NCBI GenBank assembly: GCA_030606285.1
Contig: JAUWGS010000017.1
Span: forward strand, 1 to 47,204
Origin: Planctomycetales bacterium
GTDB lineage: Bacteria; 4484-113
Direction of reading: 5' to 3'
DNA length: 47,204 bases
Shown: in pieces, positions 944 through 46,527 of the stretch
How the letters are laid out: every line of letters starts with the position of its first letter
Numbering within the stretch: position 1 is the first letter of the stretch
Notes under the pieces: model-generated
What the model was told of the DNA's origin: nothing
What the model saw: only the letters and a program-made list of their open reading frames with translations
Database searches by the model: none
Made by a program: the position numbers and the translations under genes

Positions 944-1720
944 CTAGAACGGAATAAGAGGCTTGTACTTCGTTCCCAGCAATTCGTCAATCAGCCGCAT
1001 CAAGTCTTCATCTGTAACCGGCCTAAATAGCTCGACACTGTCCAGCTTCGGCACTATCTCCACAGCCATACCAATCGGGATAAGCGAGAACAGGTAGCGC
1101 GCGTCGTCGCGGGACAGGCGAATACACCCGTGCGAAGCCCGCCTGCCCAGTCTGCGCTCGTATCCGCGTCCTTTGAGCGCGTGCATCCCGATCTCGCCAC
1201 CACGCGTCAGGCCCATCCAATGATACATATCGGCTTCATACTTCTCGGAGTATGCATATGTGGCCTTGTTCACCACCTGATAGGAATCCGGCGGCGTGGC
1301 GTAACCGCGCATTCCGGTGGACACTTTGTATTCGGCAAGCACCTGGTCGTGACGGTTCATCGCGTACAGCCGCTGCCGTGAAAGGTCAATGACCATGTGC
1401 GTAACCGCAACAGCTGATTCCGCACGAATCCTGGCTAGCAGCTCTTCCTGGCTGTGAAAGCCCCGTGAAATGAAATCCTCAACCAGCTCCGGTGCGGTTT
1501 CCGCGTCCGGGTTCATCGGGCCCTTGCGGATTATCCGGATACCCAGGCGCTCGAACAGCACTGTCTCGTCCGACTGCCCTTCCTCGTCTGACTGTACTTC
1601 CTCGCTTTGCTCCTGCTCTTCGTCTTCCCCCACGGGGCCGACGACCACGTCCGCGTGCGCAGCTATTGCTGCTACAGCCAGCATTACAAGACACAACAGA
1701 AAGGCCGCACCGCGTCGCAC
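944..1720 (-). CDS. L,D-transpeptidase (YkuD domain), secreted
   Basis: This 258-residue protein should cross-link peptidoglycan, or attach proteins to it, in the periplasm. It starts with a signal peptide (hydrophobic stretch AAFLLCLVMLAVAAIAAHA), followed by an acidic Glu/Ser/Asp-rich linker at about residues 30-52. The YkuD domain fills roughly residues 100-225 and has the family signature around HALKG and SHGCIRLS, where the Cys is the expected nucleophile. The start is a GTG at 1720, only 9 nt downstream of a TAGAAT -10 hexamer, so the message is probably leaderless. The gene is divergent from the biotin ligase gene, with a 73-bp shared promoter region. Family assignment is secure; the exact substrate is unknown. 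Confidence 0.9.
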   Translation of the reverse strand: MRRGAAFLLCLVMLAVAAIAAHADVVVGPVGEDEEQEQSEEVQSDEEGQSDETVLFERLGIRIIRKGPMNPDAETAPELVEDFISRGFHSQEELLARIRAESAVAVTHMVIDLSRQRLYAMNRHDQVLAEYKVSTGMRGYATPPDSYQVVNKATYAYSEKYEADMYHWMGLTRGGEIGMHALKGRGYERRLGRRASHGCIRLSRDDARYLFSLIPIGMAVEIVPKLDSVELFRPVTDEDLMRLIDELLGTKYKPLIPF

Positions 1721-1729
1721 TCTGCCTGT

Positions 1730-1735
1730 ATTCTA
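1730..1735 (-). promoter_or_regulatory. -10 element of the L,D-transpeptidase gene
   Basis: TAGAAT on the minus strand ends 9 nt before the GTG start at 1720. No convincing -35 box lies at the usual distance. The spacing predicts transcription starting at or next to the start codon. Confidence 0.55.
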
Positions 1736-1778
1736 ACAGGCTGTGTTGACAGATTCCAGACCCCTGCGCCCCCTTTGG

Positions 1779-1784
1779 TAGAAT
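1779..1784 (+). promoter_or_regulatory. -10 element of the biotin ligase gene
   Basis: TAGAAT lies 9 nt before the ATG at 1794, with no Shine-Dalgarno sequence between. A TTGACA at 1746-1751 is 27 bp upstream, too far to be its -35 partner. Confidence 0.55.
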
Positions 1785-1793
1785 CACCTGAAG

Positions 1794-2576
1794 ATGGCAT
1801 TGCACGTCGAGAAGCTGGAAGACGCTCTGAGCGACCTGCGCCAGCAGGTTCACCTGATTGCGGTCGACGAATGCGCGAGCACCAACGAGCTAGTTGCGCG
1901 GGCAATGGACGCTGAGAATGCGCCCGAAGCAGTCCTTGCCGTCACCAATTACCAGTCCGAGGGCCAGGGGCGGCGCGGACGCTCCTGGCACAGCCCGCGC
2001 GGCACCGACGTTCTGGCGACACTCGGGGTGCGCCTGCGAGACTATGGCTATGAGCTTGACCAGCGATTCCCTCTTCTGGCGTCGGTACTCGTAGCCCGGG
2101 GCGTCGAGGAGACAACGAAGGTCCATCTGCACACGAAGTGGCCAAATGACCTGGTGAGCAGCGAGCGCAGGAAGATAGGCGGCATCCTCGTCCGCAACAC
2201 CAGCAGCCACCTTGCGGTGGGCATCGGTGTCAACGTAAACAGCAAGCGCGCGGATTATCCTGATGAAATCCAGTGGCGAGTCGAAACTCTCAGTGCGGTC
2301 GCCGGGCGCGACCTTGACCTGACTCAGCTCGTAATCGCAATTGTGACGGAACTGCTGCGCCACTTTGCAGGCGAGCATCCGCTAATTGCAGACGAGCTGA
2401 TAGGCGAATGGCTCGACCGCTCGCTCACTATCGGCGAGACACTTATGCTTCACCGTGATGCAAAACTCGTCGAAGTTACGCCGCTGCGCCTGATCCGCGA
2501 AACCGGCGAATTGGTTGTGCGGGAAAGCGACGGAAGTGAGACCATCCTCAGCAGCGCCGACGCCATCGAATACTAG
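1794..2576 (+). CDS. birA: Biotin--[acetyl-CoA-carboxylase] ligase
   Basis: This 260-residue enzyme activates biotin with ATP and attaches it to the carboxyl carrier protein of biotin-dependent carboxylases. The catalytic core motifs are all present: the biotinyl-AMP loop GQGRRGRSWHSPRG at about residues 57-70, KWPNDLV near 114 with the following KIGGILV, and GIGVNVN near 142. The C-terminal small domain is complete. There is no N-terminal helix-turn-helix, so it is the short (class I) type and not expected to act as a biotin-operon repressor. The ATG at 1794 follows a -10 box by 9 nt, which suggests a leaderless message. Its stop codon shares a CTAG palindrome with the stop of the convergent SNF2 gene. 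Confidence 0.93.
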   Translation: MALHVEKLEDALSDLRQQVHLIAVDECASTNELVARAMDAENAPEAVLAVTNYQSEGQGRRGRSWHSPRGTDVLATLGVRLRDYGYELDQRFPLLASVLVARGVEETTKVHLHTKWPNDLVSSERRKIGGILVRNTSSHLAVGIGVNVNSKRADYPDEIQWRVETLSAVAGRDLDLTQLVIAIVTELLRHFAGEHPLIADELIGEWLDRSLTIGETLMLHRDAKLVEVTPLRLIRETGELVVRESDGSETILSSADAIEY

Positions 2577-4810: not shown

Positions 4811-4814
4811 CTGC

Positions 4815-5438
4815 TCAATCCTCCCTCAGCCCCTGGAGATGCGCCGTCTCGTTGAGAGAAACCAGGTTCATCCGCTCGCCATCGGCCTCGACTACGCTGA
4901 AGCCGCCGTTGAAAGTGCGAATATGCGTGCGCCCGATAGGGACTTTGTCGATGAGCGCGTGCACCAGGAAATAGAGCGAACCCGCGTGCGTCACGGCAAT
5001 TGCGGTAGCGTCCTCGTGCCGCTCCATCATCTCGCTGATGAACGCCAGCATCCGGTGGCGCACCCTGAGCCTCGGCTCACCGCCTGGCGGGCAGAACCAC
5101 CAGCCTTCGGAGTTGCGGCGCTGCGCGATTTGCGGGTCGGCTGCGGCAATGTCCTTCCATGCCTGTCCTTCCCATCCGCTCAGCCCCTGTTCCCGCAAGC
5201 GCGTCGTTTCGATGACCGGCAGCCCGAGATGCTTCCCGATAATCTCCGCAGTTTGCATCGCGCGCACGTAAGGCGAGGAATATAGCGCAACCGGATGATA
5301 TGCTTTCAACGCTTCTCCTGCGGCGTCGGCCTGACGGCATCCGAGGTCCGTCAGCGGAGTCTCCGCAACGCCCTGGATGACGCCGAGGTCGTTTAGCTCC
5401 GTGACGCCGTGCCGGACGAAGATAATGCGGGTAGACAT
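4815..5438 (-). CDS. Histidine phosphatase family protein (phosphoglycerate mutase-like)
   Basis: This 207-residue protein has the RHG phosphohistidine motif right at its N-terminus (IIFVRHGVTELN), the TPLTDLG segment and the second catalytic histidine in VTHAGS near residue 157. That is the plan of GpmB, CobC and related phosphatases. The substrate cannot be deduced; a small phosphorylated metabolite is typical. I chose the ATG at 5438 (MSTRIIFVRHG) because it lies 5 bp after the upstream gene's stop. A longer frame starting at 5513 would overlap that gene and add residues unlike the family. It is the middle gene of a three-gene operon with the membrane protein and the SNF2 helicase. Confidence 0.85.
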   Translation of the reverse strand: MSTRIIFVRHGVTELNDLGVIQGVAETPLTDLGCRQADAAGEALKAYHPVALYSSPYVRAMQTAEIIGKHLGLPVIETTRLREQGLSGWEGQAWKDIAAADPQIAQRRNSEGWWFCPPGGEPRLRVRHRMLAFISEMMERHEDATAIAVTHAGSLYFLVHALIDKVPIGRTHIRTFNGGFSVVEADGERMNLVSLNETAHLQGLRED

Positions 5439-5443
5439 CTGCG

Positions 5444-5875: not shown

Positions 5876-5884
5876 GCGTGGATG

Positions 5885-5893
5885 ATTCTAGCA
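5885..5893 (-). promoter_or_regulatory. Extended -10 promoter of the DUF5665/phosphatase/SNF2 operon
   Basis: TGC-TAGAAT on the minus strand, followed by 9 nt and the GTG start at 5875. The TG extension can substitute for a -35 box, and none is visible. Confidence 0.6.
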
Positions 5894-6128: not shown

Positions 6129-6190
6129 GGACGCGCGGTCTCCAGGCCGCGCGATTAAGGTGTGGGGGCCTGGAGACCCCCACTCCGACC
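6129..6190. repeat. Intergenic hairpin element (ATTAAGGTGTGG family), intact copy
   Basis: The order is a GCGCGG/CCGCGC hairpin, the conserved link attaaggtgtgg, a second hairpin GGGGGCCTGGAGACCCCC, then actccgacc. It ends 3 bp before the TGC of the extended -10 box of the 6261 gene, so any -35 contact would fall within the repeat. Copies lie at 28979-29040 (intact), 41919-41961 (first hairpin lost) and 31-112 (interrupted). Confidence 0.7.
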
Positions 6191-6193
6191 AAA

Positions 6194-6202
6194 TGCTATA
6201 AT
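6194..6202 (+). promoter_or_regulatory. Extended -10 promoter of dockerin-like lipoprotein A
   Basis: TGC-TATAAT, 58 bp before the ATG. The same TGCTAYAATAGTC string precedes the paralogous gene (minus strand, 16015-16007), which supports it as a real promoter. Confidence 0.65.
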
Positions 6203-6210
6203 AGTCGCAG

Positions 6211-6240
6211 CCTGCTGGGGGGCGGGCGGCATGAGCCCCC
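6211..6240 (+). promoter_or_regulatory. Conserved hairpin leader of lipoprotein A
   Basis: CTGGGGGGC pairs with GCCCCCAG around an 11-nt loop, in the untranslated leader just before the Shine-Dalgarno sequence. The paralog's leader (15967-16000, minus strand) has the same hairpin; its one change in the 3' arm (A to G) keeps pairing as U-G. A terminator is unlikely because no T run follows; a role in translation control or mRNA stability is possible. Confidence 0.5.
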
Positions 6241-6260
6241 AGTCAGAAGGAGAATGTCAA

Positions 6261-9149
6261 ATGACAATCCGCAGCATCCTTCGGGTGATTGCACTCACAA
6301 TCGTCGTCTGCGCGTTCGCACTCGTGCTCAACACGTGCGGTGGTGGACGCAAAGGATCGGTAGTCCAGGGCTTAAGCCCTGGCTCTTCGCAAGACAGCAA
6401 GACCAGCCCTGAAGGGCTGGACTACCCGATTGAAGTTTCGCTGGACGAAGCGCTGGCCGAACTCGCCGCGTATCCAACGCCGGATGGCGTTGATGCAGAG
6501 CTATTCGCGCAACTCAAGGCCGCGCTCGGGGAGGCGCTTCACGAACAATGGGGAGCGTCGACCTCTAGGTCGGGCGTTTCGTGCGAATTCGTTGGGTCGC
6601 CCGGTCTGGAGACCGACAGTCCCCGGGGAATGGGCAAATTCGTCTCCACGCCGCCGACCGGCGAAGCCAACCGGGTGGACGACCTCGCAATCATCGACAA
6701 TGGCGGAGGCACCTACACGCTTTCGTGGCATTATAAAAACCTCGGCGACTACGACCAGAACGGCACCGTCGGCATCTCCGACATCACGCCGCTTGCGATG
6801 CACTACGGCGAGACCTACGAGCCCACCGACGTAAACTGCCTCCTTGCTGTCATTGACGGCAGCGGGAATGGTACTGTCGACATCGCGGATATCACGCCGA
6901 TTGCGATGAATTATGCTGTGGATGTTGCATCCTACAGCGTACGTAGTTCCGCTCACGAATGGGGAGCCTATACGGAAATAGACGCGATAGGTTTCGAAGA
7001 GGCTACTGGCGGCGATGTCGGGAGGAAAATTCTTGAGCTGCCATTGGTTCCGGAACTCGGCACCTGGTATCGCGTAGTGCCGCAGGACGCCGCTTGGAAT
7101 GAGGGTGTCGTCAGCGAAGCCGTGCAGTACTTGGGAGAGATCCCTCCGGAGGTGATATATGTCTCACCATTGTCTGGGACTGTGGGCAGTGAAGCAACGT
7201 TCTCAGCCGTAGTGACCGGTGCTACTCCGATGACATACGCCTGGGATTTCGGTGGCGGGGCCGAGCCTAACACTAGCGATGAAGAGAGCCCAAGAGTCAC
7301 TCTCGGCATTGCTGGTGAATACAGCTGTTCGCTGAATGTGTTGAACGCTTATGGTGAGGACTTGTACGAGTTCGCACTGACGATAACATCTGAAACCACC
7401 TATGTCGTTTCAGGCACGGTGAGCAAAGCCGACGGTGGTAGCCTAAGCGGAGTCCTGGTTTCGCTTGATGGCGTGTCATCTGTGGCGACAGAACCCAGCG
7501 GCTACTTCGAGTTCACCGGAGTCATAGGTGGAGCCCACACACTTACGCCGAGCCTGGGGAACTGGACCTTCACTCCTCCCATCAGAGACGTGAACGTCGA
7601 ATATGCCAATGTCACAGGTCAAGACTTCACGGCCTACTCTCCCCCTGTTGCTGACTTGGTGGCAGATCCCGCGAGCGGGGAAGCACCGCTCCTAGTGGAC
7701 TTTGACGCGAGCGCAAGTCACGACCCAGATGGTGGTTCAATCGTGAAGTATGAATGGGACTGGGAAGGCGATGGTACATACGATTACGACTCGGGCACTG
7801 ATGCCACGGTGCAGCATACCTACGAAAGCGGAGGACTGTACACAGCAACGGTGCGTGTCACCGACAACGAAGCCGCTGCCGCAACTGCCACGACGAGCAC
7901 AATCGTTACCGTAACCGGGACTGCTTGGGTGCATACGTGGGGAGGGAATAGCGATGACCGAGCCAAAGGGGTCGTGTCTGATGACAGTGGGAATGTATAC
8001 GTGGCGGGATGGACTAGGAGCTTCGGCCTAGGGCCCGCATCGATTCTTCTCTTGAAGTATGACGCTGCCGGGAACATGCTATGGAGCAAGACATGGGGCG
8101 GGACAGGCGACGAAGTGGCAAAAGCGCTATTCTTAGACAGTGCAGGCAACTTGTACTTAGCGGGGGCCACTTCCAGTTTCGGGGCTGGCGACAGTGATGT
8201 CGTTCTCCTTAAGTACGATTCTAATGGGAACATCTTATGGCAGAGAACCTGGGGTGGTAGCGGATCTGAGGGTGCAGACGCACTCATCATCGATAGTCTG
8301 GATAACATCTACGTCGCAGGTATGACCAGGAGTTTTGGCACAGGCGAGCCGGATGTTGCCCTCCTGAAGTACGACTCAAACGGTAACCTGCTCTGGCAAA
8401 GAGTATGGGACAAGGGCGACATCGACTACGCCACATCACTAGCTGTTGATGACGATGGAAACCTGTACGTGTGTGGGAATACATACTCCTTCGGTGCAGG
8501 CGAGGGGGACGCTCTGGTTCTCAAGTATGACTCTTCAGGAAACCTAGTCTGGGATAGGACTTGGGGTGGCAGCGACAACGACTTCGCGTACGGAGCGGCT
8601 ATTGACGAGTCTGGTAATCTGCTTGTCACGGGAAACACACGGAACGTTGCAGAAGCAGCGATAGCTGCCTTCCTCCTGAAGTACAGCCCCGCTGGTGACC
8701 TGATATCGGAATTCACTTGTAGCGAAGGCTCCAACTACCAACCTGGAGCTATAACGGTTGATGACAGCGGAAGGGTCTATCTTGCCGGAGCGAGCGTTGA
8801 TGGCTCTAACGTCGATGTGCTTTTCCTGGAATACGCCCCGGCAGGGGGCCTGACTTTGGCCAAGACTTGGGGAAGAAATCTAGATTACGAAGTAGCCCAT
8901 TCGCTCTTTGTGGATGGAAACGGAACACTGTATTTGGCTGGGGAATCCCCCACAGCCAACGGGTATTGGCAAGAGGCAACTCCAAGCGTCTGGTCATTCT
9001 CCGGTTCAAGTATGGTTCCTGATGGAACCACTTTCTTTCCCTTCGGAACAGAGACTCAGCCCACAGGCGCTGAGAGTTCACCCCTGGGTATAGAAGACAC
9101 CGGTGGTGGTGGAAAGGACGTCTTCGTCATGAAGTACGTTCCGGAGTAG
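6261..9149 (+). CDS. Lipoprotein A: N-terminal dockerin-like pair, PKD domains, seven-bladed propeller
   Basis: This 962-residue surface-type protein begins with a lipoprotein signal (FALVLNTCGGG, Cys26). A 22-residue insert encoded by a palindromic repeat follows at 34-55. Two dockerin-like calcium-loop repeats lie at about 160-220 (DQNGTVGISDITPLAM and GNGTVDIADITPIAM). Then come an Ig/PKD-like domain at about 294-378, a carboxypeptidase-regulatory-like fold at 382-460, a PKD domain at 461-550, and seven copies of an SBBP-type propeller repeat (GNLYLAG...LLKYDSNGNILW) at 555-962. I chose the ATG at 6261 for its strong AGAAGGAGA site and because the signal peptide starts there. It is paralogous to 14063-15946 and 46625 onward. 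Its ligand is unknown; no cohesin partner is seen. Confidence 0.82.
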   Translation: MTIRSILRVIALTIVVCAFALVLNTCGGGRKGSVVQGLSPGSSQDSKTSPEGLDYPIEVSLDEALAELAAYPTPDGVDAELFAQLKAALGEALHEQWGASTSRSGVSCEFVGSPGLETDSPRGMGKFVSTPPTGEANRVDDLAIIDNGGGTYTLSWHYKNLGDYDQNGTVGISDITPLAMHYGETYEPTDVNCLLAVIDGSGNGTVDIADITPIAMNYAVDVASYSVRSSAHEWGAYTEIDAIGFEEATGGDVGRKILELPLVPELGTWYRVVPQDAAWNEGVVSEAVQYLGEIPPEVIYVSPLSGTVGSEATFSAVVTGATPMTYAWDFGGGAEPNTSDEESPRVTLGIAGEYSCSLNVLNAYGEDLYEFALTITSETTYVVSGTVSKADGGSLSGVLVSLDGVSSVATEPSGYFEFTGVIGGAHTLTPSLGNWTFTPPIRDVNVEYANVTGQDFTAYSPPVADLVADPASGEAPLLVDFDASASHDPDGGSIVKYEWDWEGDGTYDYDSGTDATVQHTYESGGLYTATVRVTDNEAAAATATTSTIVTVTGTAWVHTWGGNSDDRAKGVVSDDSGNVYVAGWTRSFGLGPASILLLKYDAAGNMLWSKTWGGTGDEVAKALFLDSAGNLYLAGATSSFGAGDSDVVLLKYDSNGNILWQRTWGGSGSEGADALIIDSLDNIYVAGMTRSFGTGEPDVALLKYDSNGNLLWQRVWDKGDIDYATSLAVDDDGNLYVCGNTYSFGAGEGDALVLKYDSSGNLVWDRTWGGSDNDFAYGAAIDESGNLLVTGNTRNVAEAAIAAFLLKYSPAGDLISEFTCSEGSNYQPGAITVDDSGRVYLAGASVDGSNVDVLFLEYAPAGGLTLAKTWGRNLDYEVAHSLFVDGNGTLYLAGESPTANGYWQEATPSVWSFSGSSMVPDGTTFFPFGTETQPTGAESSPLGIEDTGGGGKDVFVMKYVPE
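6360..6425. repeat. 66-bp two-hairpin element inserted in frame in lipoprotein A
   Basis: The unit opens GTAGTCCAG and closes with its inverse CTGGACTAC. Inside are the hairpins CCAGGGCTTAAGCCCTGG and CCAGCCCTGAAGGGCTGG. The plan matches the intergenic two-hairpin elements, with a different sequence. Its 66 bp are exactly 22 codons, so the reading frame is kept. It lies in the linker just after the lipobox. Confidence 0.75.
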
Positions 9150-10794: not shown

Positions 10795-10848
10795 GAGCGT
10801 TGAGGGGGAAGTAGGAAGTAGCCGGTAGCCAGTAGCCAGGGCAGACAA

Positions 10849-10872
10849 GTAGGGGCACGGCACGCCGTGCCC
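10849..10872. repeat. REP-like palindrome (GGGCACRGC family)
   Basis: GGGGCACGGCACGCCGTGCCC is a variant of GGGCACAGCATGCTGTGCCC, the palindrome associated with the RAYT gene at 41 kb. It directly abuts the two-hairpin element at 10874. Confidence 0.65.
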
Positions 10873-10873
10873 G

Positions 10874-10951
10874 CTGTAGGGCGGTCATTTATGGCCGCCG
10901 TCCTGAGAGGTATCCGAGGAAGAGCGGCGGGGATGAATCCCCGCCCTACAG
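10874..10951. repeat. Two-hairpin mini-element, copy 3
   Basis: A 78-bp copy with the CTGTAGGGCGG / CCGCCCTACAG ends, the two standard hairpins (first arm with one T change) and the spacer gtcctgagaggtatccgagg, which is nearly that of the hybrid copy at 9208. Confidence 0.8.
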
Positions 10952-10987
10952 AAGAAGGCGCAGTATTCCGCGCATTCTGAGACAGTT

Positions 10988-11016
10988 TTGACACACGGAT
11001 ACGTCTGGCCTACAAT
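10988..11016 (+). promoter_or_regulatory. Sigma-70-type promoter of the fur-family gene
   Basis: A perfect TTGACA (10988-10993), a 17-bp spacer and TACAAT (11011-11016). The GTG start is 7 nt further on, so transcription should begin at or one base from the start codon. The TTG inside the -35 box is in frame but is not a plausible start. Confidence 0.85.
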
Positions 11017-13901: not shown

Positions 13902-13910
13902 ATTATATCA
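13902..13910 (-). promoter_or_regulatory. Extended -10 promoter of hypF
   Basis: TGA-TATAAT on the minus strand, then 8 nt and the TTG start codon. There is no Shine-Dalgarno sequence. Confidence 0.65.
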
Positions 13911-14062: not shown

Positions 14063-15946
14063 CTAATAATAGATGGCGAACTTGAGGTCGGCATTGGTGC
14101 TGCTGTAGTAGCTGATAGCGGGATTGCCATTGACCACCGCGAGAGAGGTGTATTCGCCCACAATTCCCTCGCTATCCACGGCTACCGATGCATCCCAGCT
14201 TCCCCCGCTGGCGTCACTCGCCCGCACATACTTGAGGTCGGTGTTGCCATAGTAGCTAATGGCGGGATTTCCATTGACTACCACCATGGAGGTGCACCAG
14301 CCCACATCGTCCCCAGCGCCATCCACGGTTACCGGCGTACCCCAGATTATCCCGCCGGCATCACTCGCCCGCACATACTTCAGGTCGTTATTGGTATAGT
14401 CGAAGTAGCTGATGGCAGGATTGCCATTGGCTACTGCCAGGGAGGTCCATTCGCCCACTAATCCCGCGCTATCCACGGTTACCGGGGGAATTGTCGTCCA
14501 GTCGGAGCCACTGGCATCATTCGCCCGCACATACTTGAGATCTTGGTTGGTGCCGTCCCAGTAGCTGATGGCGGGATTGCTACTGACCACGGCCAGGGAG
14601 GCGTACCAGCCCACATCGTCCCCAGCACCATCCACCGTTACCGGCGCGCCCCAGCTTTCGCCATTAGCGTCATCCGCCCGCACATACATCAAGGCGGTGT
14701 TGCCCCAGTCCAAGTAGCTAATGGCGGGGTTGCCATTGACTACTGCTAGAGAGGTGATGGGGCCCACAACTACCACGCTATCCGCCGCTACCGGCGTGCC
14801 CCAGCTTTCCCCACTGGAGTCACTAGCCCGCACATACTTCAGGCTCATATTGGTTCCGTCGTAGTAGCTGATGGCGGGATTGCCATTGACTACCGCCAGG
14901 GAGTTAAAGAGGCCCACATTTCCCGCACTGTCCACAGTTACAGGGCTTCCCCAGGAGGAACCACTGGCATCACTCGCCCGCACATACTTCAGGTCTTGGT
15001 TGGTGTCGTCGCGGTAGCTGATGGCAGGATTCCCGTTGACTACCGCAAGCGAAGTCCACTCGCCCACATCGTCAACGCTATCCACGGTTCCGGTGTGCCA
15101 ATCGGTCATTTCAAGAATAACCACGTTACTAAGGTCGCCAAGACTGCTATCGCCGTCATACGGAGCTACCGCAAAGAACTGATACTCGCTTTCAGGAAGC
15201 AGCTCGCTGAAGCGCTTCCGGCCTTCGCCGGTCGCAAGCGCAATCTCCACGGTTCCAATCTCGACGGTTTCATCAAGACTCTCGGGATAAGTAGAAGATC
15301 CGCGTATCGAGTAGCCCGCGCAGTCGGTGGAATAGTACATTGCTATGGGGGTGATGTCCGCGATGCCTACCTTGCCGTCACCGTTGCCGTCGATGACGGC
15401 GAGGAGGCAGTTGGGTTCCGTTTCCGGGTCGTATGTCTCCCCATAGTGCATCGCAATCGGTGTGATGTCGGAGATGCCGACAGTGCCGCTCTGGTCGTAA
15501 TCGCCCAAGTTCCTGTAGTGCCACGAAAGCGTGTATGTGCCACCGCCGTTGTCGGTGATTTGCAGGTCATTGACCCGGTTGGCTTCGCCGGTGGGGGGGG
15601 TAGAGACGAGCTTCGCAGGGGTTAGGGATGAGGGATTAGGGGTTAGAGAGGAGAAGCGTTGATCAAGAGCTTCGCGCAGAGCATCATTTAATTCTGCGAA
15701 TAGCTCCGCATCTACACCATCGGGCGTCTCCAGCGCGTCGAGTTCGACGAGGGCGGAGTCTAGGGATACTTCTACCGGTGGATTGTCGGCGGGATAATCG
15801 GCGGCCTGGAGACCGCCGCTCCGGTCTGACGACTGAAGGCTGGCGACTGACGACTGCTTACCGCCGCCGCACGTGCTAAGCACAAGCGCGAATGCGCAGA
15901 CGACGAGTGTGAGTGCAACCACTCGAAGGATACAGTTGAATCTCAT
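14063..15946 (-). CDS. Lipoprotein B: N-terminal dockerin-like pair and seven-bladed propeller
   Basis: This 627-residue paralog of lipoprotein A shares its signal peptide (RVVALTLVVCAFALVLSTCGGG in two parts, Cys26), its dockerin-like pair (DQSGTVGISDITPIAMHYG near 150; GDGKVGIADITPIAMYY near 192), a FN3-like stretch, and a C-terminal propeller. The propeller is of another kind: seven repeats of about 47 residues built on SLAVVNGNPAISYYDGTN and LKYVRASDASG, ending LKFAIYY. I chose the ATG at 15946 for its aaggaggagc site and the signal peptide. The linker after the lipobox (about 30-50) and a second spot near 110 are encoded by repeat-like DNA, at the same places where lipoprotein A carries different repeats. 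It is a predicted surface lipoprotein of unknown ligand. Confidence 0.82.
   Translation of the reverse strand: MRFNCILRVVALTLVVCAFALVLSTCGGGKQSSVASLQSSDRSGGLQAADYPADNPPVEVSLDSALVELDALETPDGVDAELFAELNDALREALDQRFSSLTPNPSSLTPAKLVSTPPTGEANRVNDLQITDNGGGTYTLSWHYRNLGDYDQSGTVGISDITPIAMHYGETYDPETEPNCLLAVIDGNGDGKVGIADITPIAMYYSTDCAGYSIRGSSTYPESLDETVEIGTVEIALATGEGRKRFSELLPESEYQFFAVAPYDGDSSLGDLSNVVILEMTDWHTGTVDSVDDVGEWTSLAVVNGNPAISYRDDTNQDLKYVRASDASGSSWGSPVTVDSAGNVGLFNSLAVVNGNPAISYYDGTNMSLKYVRASDSSGESWGTPVAADSVVVVGPITSLAVVNGNPAISYLDWGNTALMYVRADDANGESWGAPVTVDGAGDDVGWYASLAVVSSNPAISYWDGTNQDLKYVRANDASGSDWTTIPPVTVDSAGLVGEWTSLAVANGNPAISYFDYTNNDLKYVRASDAGGIIWGTPVTVDGAGDDVGWCTSMVVVNGNPAISYYGNTDLKYVRASDASGGSWDASVAVDSEGIVGEYTSLAVVNGNPAISYYSSTNADLKFAIYY
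14085..15085. repeat. Seven tandem propeller-coding repeats of about 141 bp
   Basis: The word atggcgggattgccattgac (or close variants) recurs about every 141 bp on the plus strand, marking each NPAISY strand of lipoprotein B. Neighbouring units are highly alike at the DNA level, consistent with repeat amplification. Confidence 0.7.
15618..15646. repeat. GGGTTAG-type reiterated repeat inside lipoprotein B
   Basis: ggggttagggatgaggg followed by attaggggttag lies in the coding sequence and gives a Ser/Leu/Thr/Pro linker of the NPSSLTP type. It has the look of intergenic filler, and lipoprotein A has a different repeat (two R-type hairpins at 6559-6615) at the matching point. Confidence 0.5.
15801..15856. 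repeat. Intergenic-type hairpin and reiteration inside the lipoprotein B linker
   Basis: GCGGCCTGGAGACCGCCGC, a hairpin of the same CTGGAGACC type as at 6129-6190, is followed by reiterated ctgacgactg words. Both lie in frame just after the lipobox and match in position the 66-bp insert of lipoprotein A. Confidence 0.55.
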
Positions 15947-15966
15947 TGTGGGCTCCTCCTTGCTGA

Positions 15967-16000
15967 CCGGGGGCTCATACTGCCCGCCCCCCAGCAGGTT
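15967..16000 (-). promoter_or_regulatory. Conserved hairpin leader of lipoprotein B
   Basis: On the minus strand CTGGGGGGC pairs with GCCCCCGG. The leader from the -10 box to the Shine-Dalgarno site is roughly 80% identical to that of lipoprotein A, although the surrounding intergenic DNA is unrelated. Confidence 0.5.
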
Positions 16001-16006
16001 ATGACT

Positions 16007-16015
16007 ATTGTAGCA
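16007..16015 (-). promoter_or_regulatory. Extended -10 promoter of lipoprotein B
   Basis: TGC-TACAAT followed by AGTC, the same arrangement as in front of lipoprotein A. Confidence 0.65.
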
Positions 16016-16030
16016 CTTGAGCGGATTTGA

Positions 16031-16105
16031 CTGTAGGGCGGCCATTTATGGCCGCCGCAATTCATGTCGGTTGAAGAACGGCGGGGATAAATCCCCGCCC
16101 TACAG
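16031..16105. repeat. Two-hairpin mini-element, copy 4
   Basis: A 75-bp copy with both CTGTAGGGCGG-type ends, the first hairpin perfect and the second GGCGGGGATAAATCCCCGCC. Its spacer (caattcatgtcggttgaaga) is unrelated to those of the other copies. Confidence 0.8.
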
Positions 16106-16218
16106 GGGACTAAAAGCGGCGCTAATCACCGGCTGGAAAGCCGGCGCTACCCGGAATCTTATATCGCTACTCGCTACTTCTCTATACATCCTACCGGCTT
16201 TTTACGCCCGTAAACCCC

Positions 16219-22800: not shown

Positions 22801-23010
22801 GCCACAATCGCGGCTCTCCTGCCAACAGCGATAAGTATGCAGGAAGGTTCGGATTTCAGGAGCCCGCTGGCGGTCGCCGTCATAGGCGGAATGTTCTTCT
22901 CTACAGTTCTCACGCTCATCGTTATACCGGTGGTATACATGCTGGTTGAGCAGATTGGCGGCGGAAGGAAGCTTGCCAGCGAAGGTGGAGGAAGCACTGC
23001 GGTAGAATAG
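19825..23010 (+). CDS. RND-family efflux pump, AcrB-like
   Basis: This 1061-residue inner-membrane transporter exports substrates using the proton gradient. It has the full duplicated RND plan: a first helix, large periplasmic loop (about 35-330), TM2-6, a second loop (about 560-870) and TM8-12. Proton-relay residues are kept: the DD pair in GLVIDDAIVVQES (TM4, about 400) and the lysine in GLVTKNAILLVDFANQ (TM10, about 952). The type resembles hydrophobe/multidrug pumps more than metal pumps, which would show other TM4 charges. Substrates are not predictable. It ends the tetR-channel-smORF-adaptor-pump operon, though the -10 box of the next gene lies in its last codons. Confidence 0.93.
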   Translation: MNWIALVLRRHVFAVMILAFFTVVGLVSYSRLVLNMMPQVEIPIVTILTIYPGASPDVIAEQVTSKLEDTVSVIEGIEDLNSYSTEGASVLIVSFEEGRDIDIAAQDVRDKVALAKPELPEDAEEPMITKADINAMPVVAYSITSTSMAPRELREFVDKRIKDSLEQVTGVAQVQTMGGLEREIRVEVDPAKLEAHGLTPEAVGGAIAAANVDFPAGTLKQGPLEFVLKVPAQFRSLEEIADAVIFSEHGERLKIRDVAIVVDSTKEREMESRYNGISAIAVTVIKRSDASSVSVSHAVKQRMRELEDVFPHGVDSTVAYDLSEWVVHSLDDVKLAIVLGAILASFVVWLFVGRLSFAIPITLSILVSLIAAFSPMHFFGFSLNFISLMALAVAVGLVIDDAIVVQESIIRVHEETGDAYEAATRGTTEVGLAVLACTSTLVAVFLPVAFMKGMMGQIFKEFGLTVAFAVIFSLLVSLTLIPLMSTQTLRLGGAADARSFLTRLGAPLMTLHYGFARFYKWLQGFYARVLDAALRRPATVIFSATVFFLLAFPILTVMQKGFMPSYDTGVLQITMELPVESSLERTDAKVREVEELLTGLPEVKGYLSMVGQSVGGAMTMSITGQTNLATIAVVMPPKAERRLHLRWWGLIPVPYKHTQFDLIELMRERVKSVAGAKITVSAVAEMGQRAAPVQLSFTDPDYEKLKSVTARAQKLLAEIPGTINVDNSERAGKLEVSIIPHRDRLAELGMNPAMLGQALRVLYHGATFSTYRERGEEYDITLMFPESSRYDLASLRSLKLWSLPLEEPISLETVADLKLAQAPAAIQHYNKIRSIDVYADVLPGVGGGSVLNEWKRRMKQENVLPATTTIAALGEARMYGRMMTQFMLALILGIIFTYMVLASQFNSYRHPFTIMMSLPLAVTGALLVLMICGKGFDTMGFLGIILLMGLVTKNAILLVDFANQARARGLDVVDALKDAGNKRLRPILMTSFATIAALLPTAISMQEGSDFRSPLAVAVIGGMFFSTVLTLIVIPVVYMLVEQIGGGRKLASEGGGSTAVE
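23003..23008 (+). promoter_or_regulatory. -10 element of the DHH-like gene
   Basis: TAGAAT lies within the last codons of the pump gene and 6 nt before the GTG at 23015. The short spacing predicts a leaderless message even though the gene is packed against the operon. Confidence 0.55.
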
Positions 23011-26364: not shown

Positions 26365-26370
26365 TAGAAT
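26365..26370 (+). promoter_or_regulatory. -10 element of the 26377 gene
   Basis: TAGAAT, preceded by gccgg, then 6 nt and the ATG. There is no Shine-Dalgarno sequence; a leaderless message is likely. Confidence 0.55.
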
Positions 26371-27145: not shown

Positions 27146-27670
27146 CTACGGCGCGGAGAAGAGGATACGCCCCTGAGCGTCAGCGAGCCGAATACCCGGT
27201 GTGCCGTCAGGGAGCACGTGGAGCGTGGCGCGTGTGTTGCCCTGAGCGTCAGAGAGCTCAAGAATCGGTGAGACGCTAGGGACCACGGAGAGCATGGCGC
27301 GTGTCTTGCCCTGAGCGTCAGCGAGGCCAAGACTCGGTGTGCCGTCAGGGAGCACGGTGAGCCCGGCGCGTGGCTTGCCCTGAGCGTCAGAGAGGACAAG
27401 AACCGGTGTGCCGTCAGTGCGCACGGCGAGCATGGCGCGTGGCTTGCCCTGAGCGTCAAAGAGGTCAAGTCGCGGTGAGCCGTCAGGGCGCACGGAGAGC
27501 ACGGCGCGTATCTTGTCCTGAGCGTCAGCGAGGCAAAGAGACGGTGTGCCGTCAGGGAGCACGTTGAGCTCGACGCGTGGCTTGCCCTGAGCGTCCACTA
27601 CCACGAAGCTTTTGGCGCGGATTTCGTCGGGAATACCGGCTTGCGCCTCGGCAGGCTGAGAGGTTTTCAT
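27146..27670 (-). CDS. 23-residue-repeat protein without signal peptide
   Basis: This 174-residue protein consists of about six repeats of 23 residues on the pattern DAQGKPRAMLxVLPDGTPxL, capped by DAQGRILFSAP. Such short Gly/Asp-turn repeats suggest a beta-solenoid or stacked beta-hairpins. Its N-terminus (MKTSQPAEAQAGIPDEIRAK) matches residues 24-43 of the upstream paralog, whose membrane segment comes before that point. This copy therefore starts after the point where a signal would be, and is probably cytoplasmic or non-functional. The ATG at 27670 is 7 nt after TATAAT; an in-frame ATG at 27679 lies inside that box. Function unknown. Confidence 0.6.
   Translation of the reverse strand: MKTSQPAEAQAGIPDEIRAKSFVVVDAQGKPRVELNVLPDGTPSLCLADAQDKIRAVLSVRPDGSPRLDLFDAQGKPRAMLAVRTDGTPVLVLSDAQGKPRAGLTVLPDGTPSLGLADAQGKTRAMLSVVPSVSPILELSDAQGNTRATLHVLPDGTPGIRLADAQGRILFSAP
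27165..27600. repeat. 69-bp tandem coding repeats, array 1
   Basis: The word ccctgagcgtcag recurs every 69 bp (for example 27240, 27309, 27378), that is 23 codons, through the smaller repeat protein. As 69 is a multiple of three, false open frames appear on both strands. Confidence 0.75.
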
Positions 27671-27677
27671 AATACCC

Positions 27678-27683
27678 ATTATA
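27678..27683 (-). promoter_or_regulatory. -10 element of the small repeat-protein gene
   Basis: TATAAT on the minus strand in the 26-bp gap between the two repeat-protein genes, 7 nt before the ATG at 27670. Confidence 0.6.
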
Positions 27684-27696
27684 CCCCGAAAGGTCG

Positions 27697-28575
27697 CTAC
27701 GGGGCGGAGAAGAGGACACGCCCCTGAGCGTCCCAGAGGCCAAGACCCGGTCGGCCGTCATCAAGCACGCCGAGCACGGCGCGTATCTCGCCCTGAGCGT
27801 CATAGAGGTTAAGACCCGGTACGCCGTCATCAAGCACACCGAGCACGGCGCGTATCTCGCCCTGAGCGTCATAGAGGTCAAGACCCGGTGCGCCGTCATC
27901 AAGCACGCCGAGCACGGCGCGCGGCATCCCCGTAGAGTCGTAGAGCCTTAACGCTGGAGACCCATCTGAGTCGACGACAACGCCCACTCGGTCGTTTCCG
28001 ACTGAGTCGGCCATGTACAATCCAGGAGAACCGTCTTTTTGTAGCCTGATAAGCGCACGCACCTTTTCGTTGGAGTCGGCGAGCGCTAAATACGGAGAGC
28101 CATCTGGGACCAGTCCAATCCATGTGCGGGGATTCCCGCTGGAGTCAGAGAGGTGCAAACGTGGAGAGCCGTCAGCACTGACGCTAATACTCGCGCGGTT
28201 CATTTCATCGGCGTCACAGAGCCTCAGCTCCGGCGTGCCGCCAGGAAATGCGATAAGCTCCGCAGCAACACCTGTCTTCGCATCACAGAGCGTTATCCCT
28301 GCCGCACCGCCAATAAGCGTGGGGAGTGTGTAAAATGACGCTCTATTCGTCCCGTTCGCGTTATAAAGCCGTATAGCTGGCATGTCCACGGGTGCAGAAA
28401 TCTCAATCCTGGTTCTTCCTTCATCATCAACAACCACGAATCTCTTCGCGCGGATTTCATCGGGAGCCCCGGCTTGCGCCTCCGCGGGCTGGGAAGTTCT
28501 CATACACCAGCCGAGCCAGACGATTGAGAGCACTAATAGGACTGCCCAGATTCTCCAGAAGTATCCACTCATCAT
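27697..28575 (-). CDS. Membrane-anchored 23-residue-repeat protein
   Basis: This 292-residue protein starts with a hydrophobic segment (IWAVLLVLSIVWLGW, about 7-22), a membrane anchor or uncleaved signal, then PAEAQAG-PDEIRAK and about ten 23-residue repeats of the type IRAVLGVLDDGxPGLxLYDAQGE. It ends in DAQGRVLFSAP like its neighbour. The last three repeats are almost identical, pointing to recent duplication. I chose the ATG at 28575 (MMSGYFW), which has a GGGGAGGAAAG site and a -10 box about 30 bp upstream; the open frame extends further to 28674 without support. Probably an extracytoplasmic structural or binding protein; function unknown. Confidence 0.65.
   Translation of the reverse strand: MMSGYFWRIWAVLLVLSIVWLGWCMRTSQPAEAQAGAPDEIRAKRFVVVDDEGRTRIEISAPVDMPAIRLYNANGTNRASFYTLPTLIGGAAGITLCDAKTGVAAELIAFPGGTPELRLCDADEMNRASISVSADGSPRLHLSDSSGNPRTWIGLVPDGSPYLALADSNEKVRALIRLQKDGSPGLYMADSVGNDRVGVVVDSDGSPALRLYDSTGMPRAVLGVLDDGAPGLDLYDAQGEIRAVLGVLDDGVPGLNLYDAQGEIRAVLGVLDDGRPGLGLWDAQGRVLFSAP
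27720..27935. repeat. 69-bp tandem coding repeats, array 2 (near-identical units)
   Basis: Three consecutive 69-bp units sharing ccgagcacggcgcgtatctc and ccctgagcgtcatagaggt are almost identical, while units further upstream in the gene have drifted. This is the pattern of a recent local expansion. Confidence 0.75.
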
Positions 28576-28606
28576 CTTTCCTCCCCGTTGAAGTAGGACA
28601 GGCATT

Positions 28607-28615
28607 AAGATAGCA
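28607..28615 (-). promoter_or_regulatory. Extended -10 of the membrane-anchored repeat-protein gene
   Basis: TGC-TATCTT on the minus strand. It leaves a leader of about 25 nt with a GGGGAGGAAAG ribosome-binding site before ATG 28575. Confidence 0.45.
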
Positions 28616-28697
28616 GAGGTTTGCCTAGAAGTCATCTCTGTGGAATCACGGGCAAGCGCCCGCGTGCTCATCACGCAGAAGGACGCGCTCAGCGTCC

Positions 28698-28721: not shown

Positions 28722-28889
28722 GTTATCCCTCTAGCGGGGTGCTGGCTATATGGAACACTCGCACCTTTGGCAGGATACTCGGTTTGCGCCCACAAGCGGA
28801 TGCCTCTCGCTGCGGGTGGGGATGACCGTGGCTGCATTTGGGGGTGCAGCTGTTTTCCAGAATCTGTTGACTCACGGCAGCTGCCGAAC

Positions 28890-28913
28890 GGGCACAGCGT
28901 GCTGTGCCCCTAC
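28890..28913. repeat. REP-like palindrome (GGGCACAGC family)
   Basis: GGGCACAGCGTGCTGTGCCC followed by ctac. It matches the RAYT-associated palindrome with one change in the centre. Confidence 0.7.
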
Positions 28914-28978
28914 AGAAGGCGGGGCGCGGAGACCCTCCTTCACCAAGGTTCCGGCGGGCAAGCCCTGCCCTACAATCC

Positions 28979-29094: not shown

Positions 29095-29103
29095 TGCTAG
29101 ACT
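29095..29103 (+). promoter_or_regulatory. Extended -10 of the M20 peptidase gene
   Basis: TGC-TAGACT, then 8 nt and the ATG at 29112. No Shine-Dalgarno sequence. Confidence 0.55.
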
Positions 29104-32833: not shown

Positions 32834-32842
32834 ATTGTAGCA
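32834..32842 (-). promoter_or_regulatory. Extended -10 of the 31581-32825 gene
   Basis: TGC-TACAAT on the minus strand, then 8 nt to the ATG; no ribosome-binding site. Confidence 0.6.
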
Positions 32843-37735: not shown

Positions 37736-37866
37736 GCAATCTTGCGCTTGGCAGGGCTGCTTTTATATCCCTCGATTCCGGACGACTCCCGCACTTGCCG
37801 CTTTATCAGTCGCCGCTTCTCAGCCGGCGTAAGGGATTTATACGCTTTCCCAGACCGCTTCGACAT
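37690..37866 (-). CDS. Candidate Fic antitoxin (VbhA-like), convergent with Fic
   Basis: This 58-residue basic protein starts MSKRSGKAYKSLTPAEKRRL and contains RESSGIEGYKSSPAKRKIAQ. SSGIEG fits the inhibitory motif (S/T)xxxE(G/N), placed in a helix and followed by a Pro-containing turn and a second helix, as in VbhA. In that family the glutamate enters the Fic active site and blocks ATP from binding productively. The ATG at 37866 is 9 nt from a TATAAT, so it has its own leaderless promoter. Its last 46 bp overlap the 3' end of the fic gene on the other strand, an unusual layout since class I antitoxin genes normally lie upstream in the same operon. Pairing is inferred. Confidence 0.65.
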   Translation of the reverse strand: MSKRSGKAYKSLTPAEKRRLIKRQVRESSGIEGYKSSPAKRKIAQEFIASRKRDASGR

Positions 37867-37875: not shown

Positions 37876-37881
37876 ATTATA
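37876..37881 (-). promoter_or_regulatory. -10 element of the candidate antitoxin gene
   Basis: TATAAT on the minus strand, 9 nt before ATG 37866. Independent transcription would let antitoxin be made apart from the CBS-fic operon. Confidence 0.6.
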
Positions 37882-38032: not shown

Positions 38033-38038
38033 TATAAT
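38033..38038 (+). promoter_or_regulatory. -10 element of the radical-SAM gene
   Basis: TATAAT followed by 6 nt and the GTG at 38045. The open frame continues upstream through the box but without any start signal. Confidence 0.6.
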
Positions 38039-39997: not shown

Positions 39998-40144
39998 TGA
40001 TAAGGAGGATGCCGGAAGTACGAAGTAGGATGAGAGGATGTTTAGGGGCATGCATGTCACGCCATGCCCTTCCTCACTGGCTAGGCGGGGCTATCAGCCG
40101 TCAGTCGCCAGTGGTCAAACAAAGCGAGCAGCGAGCGATTGTAG

Positions 40145-40222
40145 GGGCACAGCATGCTGTGCCCGTTCCGCAGTAACCAGGGCACAGCACGTTGGCCAAT
40201 GACGCAGCCGCGTTATAGAATC
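40145..40222. repeat. 78-bp repeat A: REP palindrome plus promoter of a lost RAYT copy
   Basis: It matches 41110-41187 in 69 of 78 positions by direct comparison. It runs from the GGGCACAGCATGCTGTGCCC palindrome through gccaatgacgca to TAGAATC. After the -10 (40216-40221) a GTG at 40229 opens a frame reading MPRRSV, like the usual RAYT N-terminus, which is then lost. It appears to be the 5' end of a decayed second transposase unit. Confidence 0.65.
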
Positions 40223-40855: not shown

Positions 40856-41020
40856 CTACCCCCCTCCCAACATCCTGACGTATTCAAGCTCTTTACGGTA
40901 ATCGCGGTCGATGAGTTGTTTGACGGTGACGAGGTTTATGCAGTTGTCCAGCAGGCACTTGAGTTCGTCCAGGCAGTCGCCGCAGTAGATGACGCTCGTT
41001 TGGACTGAATCTCCGCTCAT
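40856..41020 (-). pseudogene. Remnant of a DNA methyltransferase-like gene
   Basis: The 54-residue frame begins MSGDSVQTSVIYCGDCLDEL then KCLLDNCINLV. That is the opening of beta-class site-specific DNA methyltransferases (IYxGDxLDxLxxLPDNSVDLIYIDPPF-like pattern), but the catalytic DPPF and everything beyond are missing; the rest reads RDYRKELEYVRMLGGG and stops. The promoter is intact: an extended -10 (TGC-TACAAT, 41027-41035) lies 6 nt before the ATG. It is best read as a deletion remnant still able to be transcribed; a real small protein is possible. Confidence 0.45.
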
Positions 41021-41026
41021 AGGCAG

Positions 41027-41035
41027 ATTGTAGCA
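41027..41035 (-). promoter_or_regulatory. Extended -10 of the methyltransferase-like remnant
   Basis: TGC-TACAAT on the minus strand, 6 nt before ATG 41020, an intact copy of the leaderless promoter type used across the window. Confidence 0.55.
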
Positions 41036-41187: not shown

Positions 41188-41766
41188 GCCTATGTATCCA
41201 GCCGCATCCCAATTCCGGGCCTGCCCGACCGCCGGTCGGTACGGATGCGCACCTACGATTACGCCACCGCCGGTATCTACTTCGTGACCGTCTGCACCCA
41301 CGGCAAGAGGTGCGTCCTCGGGCGAGTGACTAATGACCGAGTCGTTTTATCCCGCATTGGCGCCATCGTGGACGAATGCTGGCGGGCGATACCGGAGCAC
41401 TTCGCGGGCGTGGAGCTGCATGAATTCGTGGTGATGCCAAACCACTTGCATGGGCTCATCATCCTGCCGGAAGCACCACGGGCACAGCATGCTGTGCCCC
41501 TACGGAACAAGGACGTCCTGGCTCCGGAGCGCAGCTTCGGCGCTATGCGGCCGGGCGAGCTGTCCGCCATCGTTCGGTCGTTCAAGTCCGCGTGCACCAA
41601 GCGGGTGAACCGGTTGCGGCGGACGTCCGGCCGGACACTGTGGCAGCGAGGTTACTATGAGCATGTCGTGCGAGACGCGGATGACCTAGAGCAGCTTCAG
41701 CGCTATATCATCGAGAATCCGTTGAGCTGGGTGCTGAACCGGGAGAATCCACTGCGCGGCAAGTAG
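41164..41766 (+). CDS. REP-associated tyrosine transposase (RAYT, Y1/IS200-like)
   Basis: This protein (200 residues from ATG 41164, or 173 from ATG 41245) is a single-stranded-DNA HUH transposase of the kind that spreads REP palindromes. It has the opening RRSVRMRTYDYATAGIYFVT, the HUH motif in VVMPNHLHGLI (about residue 98) and the catalytic tyrosine region in WQRGYYEHVVRDADD near 163, so the core is intact. The start is unclear: the -10 box at 41181-41186 is followed by an ATG at 41192 in the wrong frame, which suggests a small frameshift or start at 41245. A copy of its presumed REP target lies in frame at 41480-41503, with others just before and after the gene. Confidence 0.85.
   Translation: MTHPRCRIAYVSSRIPIPGLPDRRSVRMRTYDYATAGIYFVTVCTHGKRCVLGRVTNDRVVLSRIGAIVDECWRAIPEHFAGVELHEFVVMPNHLHGLIILPEAPRAQHAVPLRNKDVLAPERSFGAMRPGELSAIVRSFKSACTKRVNRLRRTSGRTLWQRGYYEHVVRDADDLEQLQRYIIENPLSWVLNRENPLRGK
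41480..41503. repeat. REP palindrome inside the RAYT coding sequence
   Basis: GGGCACAGCATGCTGTGCCC followed by CTAC is read in frame as RAQHAVPLR between the HUH motif and the tyrosine motif. It is identical to the intergenic copies at 41110 and 41827. Confidence 0.8.
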
Positions 41767-41826
41767 AAGGGCTTGCCTACGAGAGCACCATCCTTCAACC
41801 GCAGAGCACTTATGTGAAGGCGTAAC

Positions 41827-41850
41827 GGGCACAGCATGCTGTGCCCCTAC
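41827..41850. repeat. REP palindrome downstream of RAYT
   Basis: GGGCACAGCATGCTGTGCCC followed by CTAC, 60 bp after the RAYT stop. The gene is thus flanked by, and contains, the same palindrome. Confidence 0.75.
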
Positions 41851-41918
41851 GGTCGTTCCCCCATAGATACTTATGGCGTGGAGATTTATCCCCCTATGGA
41901 GGACCCGCCCAGCAACTC

Positions 41919-42001
41919 GGACGCGCGATTAAGGTGTGGCGACCTGAAGATTACCACTCCGCATAAATTGAAGAAGGCGGGGCGCGGAGGCCCCGCCCTA
42001 C
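41919..42001. repeat. Truncated ATTAAGGTGTGG element and a GGCGGGGC hairpin
   Basis: gacgcgcgattaaggtgtgg lacks the first hairpin present at 6129 and 28979. It is followed by GGCGGGGCGCGGAGGCCCCGCC (41975-41996) and ctacaa, just after the end of the leftward glycosylase gene. Confidence 0.6.
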
Positions 42002-42007
42002 AACAAT

Positions 42008-45431: not shown

Positions 45432-45439
45432 CGGCGGAT

Positions 45440-45448
45440 AGTCTAGCA
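45440..45448 (-). promoter_or_regulatory. Extended -10 of the murG operon
   Basis: TGC-TAGACT on the minus strand, then 8 nt to ATG 45431. It is the same hexamer as used for the M20 peptidase gene. Confidence 0.6.
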
Positions 45449-45467
45449 CAGGTAAACGCGCGAGCCG

Positions 45468-46514
45468 CTACTCGTAATGCAGCGAAATCTGATACGCAAG
45501 CTCCCCGCGGAAGTCGTCGAACCATACTATCTGCGGCACGAACATGCGGTAGTAATCGTCCATCTGGGCTATATCGGCAGTGCGATACTTGCTGTTGTCG
45601 CGCGTGCGCCAGGGGTCGGTCACGAGACCCAGCGTGCCGTCTTCGCCGATGGCGACGCCCTCAAAGCTGCGATATCCGTACTCGCGGCCGAATCCATCAA
45701 CGATACCGCTGAATCTGACGGCCAGTGCACACTTCCAGTGGTTCTGGGGGTTCTTTATCAGAGCAGTGTCCATCGGCTCGAAATCGGGGAAAACGTACAG
45801 CGTGTCAACATTGCGGTCCAGCACCAAAAGCGCGCGCAACTCCGTGTCGTAGTACAGGCCGCAGCAGCTCTGGATGTAGCGCGGAAGGCGCACGTGGCAC
45901 AGGAATTTGACGCTGGTGACTTCGCTTTCGCCGCAGTTAACACGGTAGAGCGTTAGATACCGCTCAAGTCCTCGGAAAAACGGCATTCCTTCCCAGCCGA
46001 CCATTAGCACGCTAGACATCGGATCGTAGGCCAGCCCTTCCGGGCCTAGGCCGGTTCCGCGCCGGTATCCCTGCGGCAGTTCCAGGAAGAACTCCTGATC
46101 CAGCACCAGCGCGTCGCCCTCGATGCGGACAAACTGCACCTTGGTGTCCCACCTCTCGAAGCTCACCACGAACTCGTCAATCTCCGGGATGTAGCTCAGA
46201 TCCTCCAGGTCCAGGTTCGGCCGCCAGCGTGGAACGCGCATCGCGTCGCAAAAGTCCATATACGGCGGGTCAACGTTGAAGCGGAACATCTGCCCGCTGT
46301 CGTCTCCCACGGAGAATATCTCGCCGCCGACCTCGAAAAGACCGCTCGTCTGGTCTTGCGCATTATCCGGTTGCCCCGGCATACACAAAAACGCCGCGCC
46401 GCTCTGGGCAAGCACTGTCCCGTCGGGGAATGTCGCTACACCACGCGCCAGCGCCGGCGCTGATGTGAACGCGAGAACAACGAAAATCACCGCTAGTGGA
46501 TAGAGCCGTTTCAT
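45468..46514 (-). CDS. Secreted propeller-like protein (esterase-like or SdiA-regulated-like)
   Basis: This 348-residue protein has a signal peptide (LAVIFVVLAFTSAPALA) and a beta-rich body with repeated DxDxL and GxE motifs (VGGEIFSVGDDSGQMFRFNV; LDLEDLSYIPEIDEFVVSFE; GPEGLAYDP; FEGVAIGEDGTLGLVTDPWR). The GPEGLAYD and FEGVAI segments recall phytase-like, esterase-like or SdiA-regulated beta-propellers, in which these acidic residues line the top face. Activity is uncertain. The ATG at 46514 lies 7 nt after TAGAAT. It is one of the few exported proteins in the window with a leaderless-type start. Confidence 0.65.
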   Translation of the reverse strand: MKRLYPLAVIFVVLAFTSAPALARGVATFPDGTVLAQSGAAFLCMPGQPDNAQDQTSGLFEVGGEIFSVGDDSGQMFRFNVDPPYMDFCDAMRVPRWRPNLDLEDLSYIPEIDEFVVSFERWDTKVQFVRIEGDALVLDQEFFLELPQGYRRGTGLGPEGLAYDPMSSVLMVGWEGMPFFRGLERYLTLYRVNCGESEVTSVKFLCHVRLPRYIQSCCGLYYDTELRALLVLDRNVDTLYVFPDFEPMDTALIKNPQNHWKCALAVRFSGIVDGFGREYGYRSFEGVAIGEDGTLGLVTDPWRTRDNSKYRTADIAQMDDYYRMFVPQIVWFDDFRGELAYQISLHYE

Positions 46515-46521
46515 GGCTCAT

Positions 46522-46527
46522 ATTCTA
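46522..46527 (-). promoter_or_regulatory. -10 element of the 45468-46514 gene
   Basis: TAGAAT on the minus strand, 7 nt before ATG 46514, with no Shine-Dalgarno sequence. Confidence 0.55.

Follow-up and report, generated by a model that had tools for sequence, protein, structure and literature searches.

The locus raises the question of whether its genes are transcribed from promoters that lie so close to the coding region that the mRNAs have practically no leader. In the window (i.e., the whole stretch of DNA that was analysed, 47,204 nt), the original prediction described -10-like hexamers 5-9 nt before the start codons of at least thirteen first genes without a Shine-Dalgarno (SD) sequence, and read this arrangement as widespread leaderless transcription. 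The computational analysis argues for this reading. We put at roughly 0.9 the probability that these genes are transcribed by the ordinary sigma-A route into leaderless mRNAs, in most cases without a -35 element, the -10 box of the housekeeping sigma factor being placed directly against the coding region. The genome appears to belong to the candidate phylum UBP7; this placement is based solely on the UBP7 label of one metagenome-assembled genome of the same order.

All 15 starts listed for the window possess a TANA(A/C)T box (TAGAAT, TATAAT, TACAAT or TAGACT) separated from the start codon by 6, 7, 8 or 9 nt, and an SD-like match of more than 3 nt was found at none of them in the region -18 to -4. 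The box and the missing SD sequence were thus confirmed in 15/15 cases; the proposed range of 5-9 nt holds for 6-9 nt only, as a gap of 5 nt does not occur among these sites. The TGN extension, which had been called frequent, is present 5' of the hexamer at 8 of the 15. The DNA identity to a same-genus (sister) genome is ~70-92% over gene starts. All 11 sites that can be compared with it keep the -10 box at a gap of 6-9 nt there, with an identical gap in ten and a change from 9 to 8 nt at 1794.

On the reverse strand, TAGAAT at 1730..1735 (TGT extension) is separated by 9 nt from GTG 1720, the start of a gene for an L,D-transpeptidase (YkuD match); -10 and gap are unchanged in the sister, which has an ATG in place of the GTG. 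An exchange between GTG and ATG at an unchanged position is also seen at 41020. TAGAAT at 5885..5890 (TGC extension) stands 9 nt before GTG 5875 of a gene for a DUF5665 protein, with -10 and gap identical in the sister. In front of hypF, TATAAT at 13902..13907 (TGA extension) precedes TTG 13893 by 8 nt; both the TTG and the spacer are conserved, and the acylphosphatase domain begins at residue 11. TACAAT at 32834..32839 (TGC extension) is found 8 nt before ATG 32825 and is replaced by TAGAAT with an equal gap in the sister. TAGACT at 45440..45445 (TGC extension; 8 nt before ATG 45431, MurG) and TAGAAT at 46522..46527 (7 nt before ATG 46514) are conserved as well. Two further boxes on this strand had no match in the sampled sister DNA: TATAAT at 27678..27683, 7 nt before ATG 27670 of a gene for a repeat protein, and TATAAT at 37876..37881, 9 nt before ATG 37866 of a 58-aa open reading frame (ORF) without Pfam match. 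TACAAT at 41027..41032 (TGC extension) lies 6 nt before ATG 41020 of a 54-aa ORF.

On the forward strand, TAGAAT at 1779..1784 (TGG extension) is located 9 nt before ATG 1794 of the gene for a biotin-protein ligase (Pfam BPL), the sister having TAGAAT 8 nt before its ATG. TACAAT at 11011..11016 precedes GTG 11024 of a Fur family gene by 7 nt, and the sister keeps its -35, -10 and GTG. TAGAAT at 23003..23008 lies 6 nt before GTG 23015, within the 3' end of an upstream RND gene (stop 23010); the sister contig ends here. Another TAGAAT (26365..26370) is found 6 nt before ATG 26377 of a gene for a membrane protein without Pfam match, and no counterpart of it is present in the sampled sister DNA. 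TAGACT at 29098..29103 (TGC extension), 8 nt before ATG 29112 of an M20-type peptidase gene, is conserved in the sister, and TATAAT at 38033..38038, 6 nt before GTG 38045 of a radical SAM protein gene, is identical there, with the protein match starting at GTG 38045. The ORFs at 37866 and 26377 are candidate genes only.

The fur promoter had been regarded as the clearest case. Its TTGACA-N17-TACAAT arrangement is indeed present (spacer 17), but it is atypical, being the only perfect TTGACA among the 15 sites. The designation as first genes does not apply to 23015, which starts 5 nt after the same-strand stop at 23010 with its -10 overlapping that gene, nor to 45431, which follows a same-strand gene by 36 nt. 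The boundaries of the protein domains fit the proposed starts of MurG, HypF and Fur. In MurG, the GT28 domain starts at residue 3, and therefore GTG 45449 is not the start. The corrections of start codons made in the original prediction are well supported for 1720, 5875, 11024, 13893, 38045 and 45431.

The original prediction proposed to look for a peak in the distance between -10 box and start codon over the whole genome, which has 2.30 Mb in 36 contigs (the window is contig 30) and 58.6% GC. This was done with a sample of 764 kb that includes the window and corresponds to about a third of the genome; 586 genes were called in it with a home-made hexamer-coding script, and several in-frame starts near the 5' end of each gene were allowed in the gap counts. 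For in-frame starts, this revealed a sharp peak between 6 and 9 nt that is highest at 6 nt: the strict hexamer was found at gaps of 6, 7, 8 and 9 nt in 41, 20, 20 and 12 genes, respectively, vs a mean of 7.8 genes per gap elsewhere. In the same sample, no such peak precedes internal in-frame starts or the out-of-frame starts found in these 5' regions. That TATAAT-like words are simply common, and that those near starts were picked, is a negligible possibility. Such sites are indeed denser in the window than in the genome on average, as this explanation would have it (the window makes up ~6% of the sampled DNA and has clearly more than that share of the 93 candidates), but the box occurs at gaps of 6-9 nt in 93 genes vs 31.5 expected (maximum 35) from displaced gaps, a control that is stricter than shuffling as it also counts real leadered promoters. 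In dinucleotide shuffles of the upstream sequence, only 11.9 ± 3.6 genes (maximum 23) had a box at gaps of 5-9 nt, vs 99 observed, and the peak was reproduced in six genomes from which the claim did not originate.

By the displaced-position control, roughly one in three of the 93 raw candidates would be background. The excess amounts to 10.5% of all genes (raw value 93/586, 16%). It may be a lower bound, given that the same script, with TANNNT, finds only ~11% on a plasmid of Deinococcus deserti, a bacterium with many leaderless mRNAs. In the genome studied here, the excess did not increase when TANA(A/C)T was relaxed to TANNNT, weaker boxes adding little. The excess is 16.7% for divergently oriented genes, 11.5% for genes more than 100 nt behind a same-strand gene and 5.2% for those at most 40 nt behind one, so that first genes of transcription units are enriched. 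"Widespread" is thus a fair description of the distribution over genome and phylum, although only a minority of the genes are involved, about a tenth by excess.

The 16S rRNA ends with GGATCACCTCCTTTTT, i.e., with a normal, intact anti-SD sequence, and loss of the anti-SD can be rejected. An SD sequence of at least 5 nt was found in none of the 93 candidates vs 49% of the non-candidate genes (best of several starts; 21% in the shifted control), and one of 4 nt in 10% of the candidates. SD-led and leaderless-type genes thus appear to coexist in a genome with an intact anti-SD.

Bacterial RNA polymerase usually initiates at a purine that follows a pyrimidine, ~7 nt past the -10 box. Of the 83 sites with a gap of 6 nt, 72 have a pyrimidine immediately before the start codon, vs 48% in other genes (p ~2e-13), and with a gap of 7 nt the pyrimidine is found a base farther upstream instead (31/38). 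Because of this shift, the signature tracks the -10 box rather than the codon, and it coincides with the codon only at gap 6. This is the signature that a promoter initiating at, or 1-3 nt 5' of, the start codon should leave. A pyrimidine is also frequent at the same distance after leadered extended -10 boxes (73/107).

When the sites are aligned by their -10 boxes, a G is present two bases 5' of the hexamer in 75% and a T three bases 5' of it in 53%, the sites being picked by a matrix trained on the same data; upstream of position -6, no position of these matrix-picked sites exceeds 0.1 bit. Among strict gap 6-7 sites chosen without the matrix, xGN is found in 89/131 and TGN in 52/131; in the two relatives with the highest GC content, TGN is rare (1/19 and 1/12). 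A conserved -35 element as a general part of these promoters was rejected by -10 alignment and flexible-spacer matching: a TTGACA-like sequence at a spacer of 16-18 is present at 6/131 sites (controls, 0-3), i.e., TTGACA is exceptional rather than typical. Five of the six sites with such a -35 lack the TG. This is a hint that either element can stand in for the other, as is the case in other bacteria, but the sites are too few for a claim. Furthermore, Sigma70_r3 and Sigma70_r4 were identified in one 426-aa frame of the same genome (C17:15292-15720). With TGN before the box, a dispensable -35 and a primary sigma factor with regions 3 and 4, the promoters can be putatively assigned to the sigma-70/sigma-A extended -10 class.

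A high AT content and a lack of structure are common around translation starts, and the TA-rich box could on this ground be regarded as a translational or regulatory signal or as an AT-rich unstructured patch instead of a promoter. We consider this very improbable: the motif fits the extended -10 consensus with a G two bases before it, the pyrimidine-purine step lies at the canonical distance, and the same strict hexamer farther upstream of other genes is accompanied by an excess of -35 elements (21/303 vs 2-4).

The gap 6-7 peak was found in partial stretches of all six relatives, which represent the levels of genus, family, order and class. None of them had been used to form the claim, and combined they have 88 genes at gaps of 6-9 nt vs ~27 at displaced gaps. 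In one relative (G003), 13 and 6 genes have gaps of 6 and 7 nt, respectively, vs ~1 per gap; the same-genus genome has the weakest peak, with 5, 4 and 8 genes at gaps of 6-8 nt vs 1.7. The same script gave no peak for E. coli K-12 and was positive for the D. deserti plasmid.

Among the candidates of the sampled genome, 17 of the 20 that are comparable with the sister keep the -10 at a gap of 5-9 nt, 15 of them with an identical gap. Strict -10 boxes at gaps of 12-40 nt are conserved, too (7/11 at the same offset). As leadered -10 boxes are also conserved, sister conservation backs "promoter plus start codon" but does not by itself show leaderlessness. The leaderless inference is carried by the peak in position together with the signature of initiation.

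If the hexamers were real promoters and the true starts were located further downstream behind SD sequences, the mRNAs would be leadered and the nearby codon a matter of chance. The count leaves some room for this, as it allows several starts per gene and a strict -10 is present in ~5% of genes whichever displaced set of four gaps is taken; this explanation is nevertheless improbable. The peak is frame-specific, the sister keeps the start codon in place or swaps it for another start codon, the domain boundaries of MurG and HypF require the proposed starts, and the initiation signature falls on the codon itself.

Leaderless transcription, the reading that we prefer, is thus supported by the in-frame peak, the initiation signature, the absence of SD sequences, the concentration in first genes, the phylum-wide peak and the conservation of -10, spacing and start in orthologues. 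From these computed features (motif, spacing, frame, initiation signature, conservation, SD absence) we infer the mRNA 5' ends and the translation route as follows. RNA polymerase would read TANA(A/C)T, usually aided by an upstream G or TG and usually without TTGACA, and would initiate ~7 nt 3' of the -10. With a gap of 6 nt, the start codon would be the first codon of the mRNA, and gaps of 7-9 nt would result in a leader of 1-3 nt. The SD-less mRNAs would presumably be translated by the known leaderless route, in which 70S ribosomes bind, or binding is assisted by IF2, at the 5' start codon; other genes of the genome use SD sites read by the intact anti-SD. Upstream or read-through promoters could give additional leadered mRNAs from the same genes.

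The choice of start codon differs with the gap: GTG and ATG occur 51 and 30 times at gap 6, and 23 and 55 times at gaps 7-9 (Fisher p 3e-5; candidates from seven genomes). We tentatively suggest, as an idea that is rather doubtful at present, that the start codon doubles as promoter initiator in this phylum, GTG being preferred at +1 and ATG where the codon begins one or more bases past +1, often after a G at +1. If this were true, start-codon choice would partly be set by the initiating-nucleotide preference of RNA polymerase, on an extended -10 leaderless system without -35.

The leaderless mode itself is already known in bacteria, and the idea is not new. Zheng et al. 2011 (PMC3160421), who surveyed sequenced cultured phyla, found TA-led genes in 207/953 genomes, their TANNNT-type -10 lying ~12 bp 5' of the start codon. 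Several low-GC genomes of that survey had a strong TG in front of the box, and in GC-rich ones the motif was a degenerate TANNNT. The genes described here have the same geometry and are likewise a minority alongside SD genes; they differ from those of the survey in that, at 58.6% GC, the box is a more complete TANAAT and its G/TG extension is strong. In Mycobacterium tuberculosis (Cortes et al. 2013, PMC3898074), start-site mapping showed that, among genes with a primary start site, 26% are transcribed from the start codon onwards; it also revealed a dominant -10, no conserved -35 and TGN before 7% of the TANNNT boxes. A -10 without a general -35 is common to both systems, whereas TGN is far more frequent at the sites analysed here, which are deduced from sequence. 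In Deinococcus-Thermus (PMC12340547), a -10 is adjacent to ~30% of ORFs; the mechanism was tested there with reporters, and an added -35 raised expression. Geometry and inferred mechanism are alike in our genome, which belongs to another phylum, and the ~30% of ORFs compares with ~10% excess or 16% raw here. In representative genomes, the GeneMarkS-2 leaderless class was predicted in 21.6% of bacterial species, according to the summary in PMC9581028. A limited literature search for leaderless genes in UBP7 yielded no paper. What is added here is a lineage, putatively UBP7, the fuller TANAAT with G/TG extension at 58.6% GC and a candidate gap-dependence of the start codon. An uncultivated phylum thereby joins the bacteria with substantial predicted leaderless expression, providing an example of SD-led and leaderless genes side by side with an intact anti-SD. 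Gene starts in these genomes can be corrected by means of the -10 position, including GTG and TTG starts that are missed by longest-ORF callers.

Scanning the window against Rfam and for tRNAs gave no matches. The 54-aa ORF at 40856-41020 appears to consist of the N-terminus of a DNA methyltransferase followed by a tail of different origin. Elsewhere in the genome there are a second truncated copy and a paralogue that looks intact, so that there are two more copies of promoter and start, which are common to all; the ORF is probably a truncated methyltransferase paralogue with its promoter retained. Large secreted proteins are encoded at 6162-9149, 14063-16045 and 47120-47179; they belong to a multi-copy family with a common dockerin-like stretch (GDYDQNGTVGISDITPIAMHYGE) and many copies in the genome. 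At 27146-28674, two adjoining proteins are encoded that are made up of DAQGKPRAVLAVLPDGTP-type repeats; as many as 28 matches to the repeat occur in the sampled DNA. Short dispersed and mostly palindromic intergenic repeats (e.g., GTAGGGGCACAGCATGCTGTGCCC and CTGTAGGGCGGCCATTTATGGCCGCC) are located at 10810-10956, 16029-16109, 28888-28918, 40139-40166, 41478-41503 and 41825-41850; they have 8-29 matches each in the 764 kb and are present in the sister genome as well.
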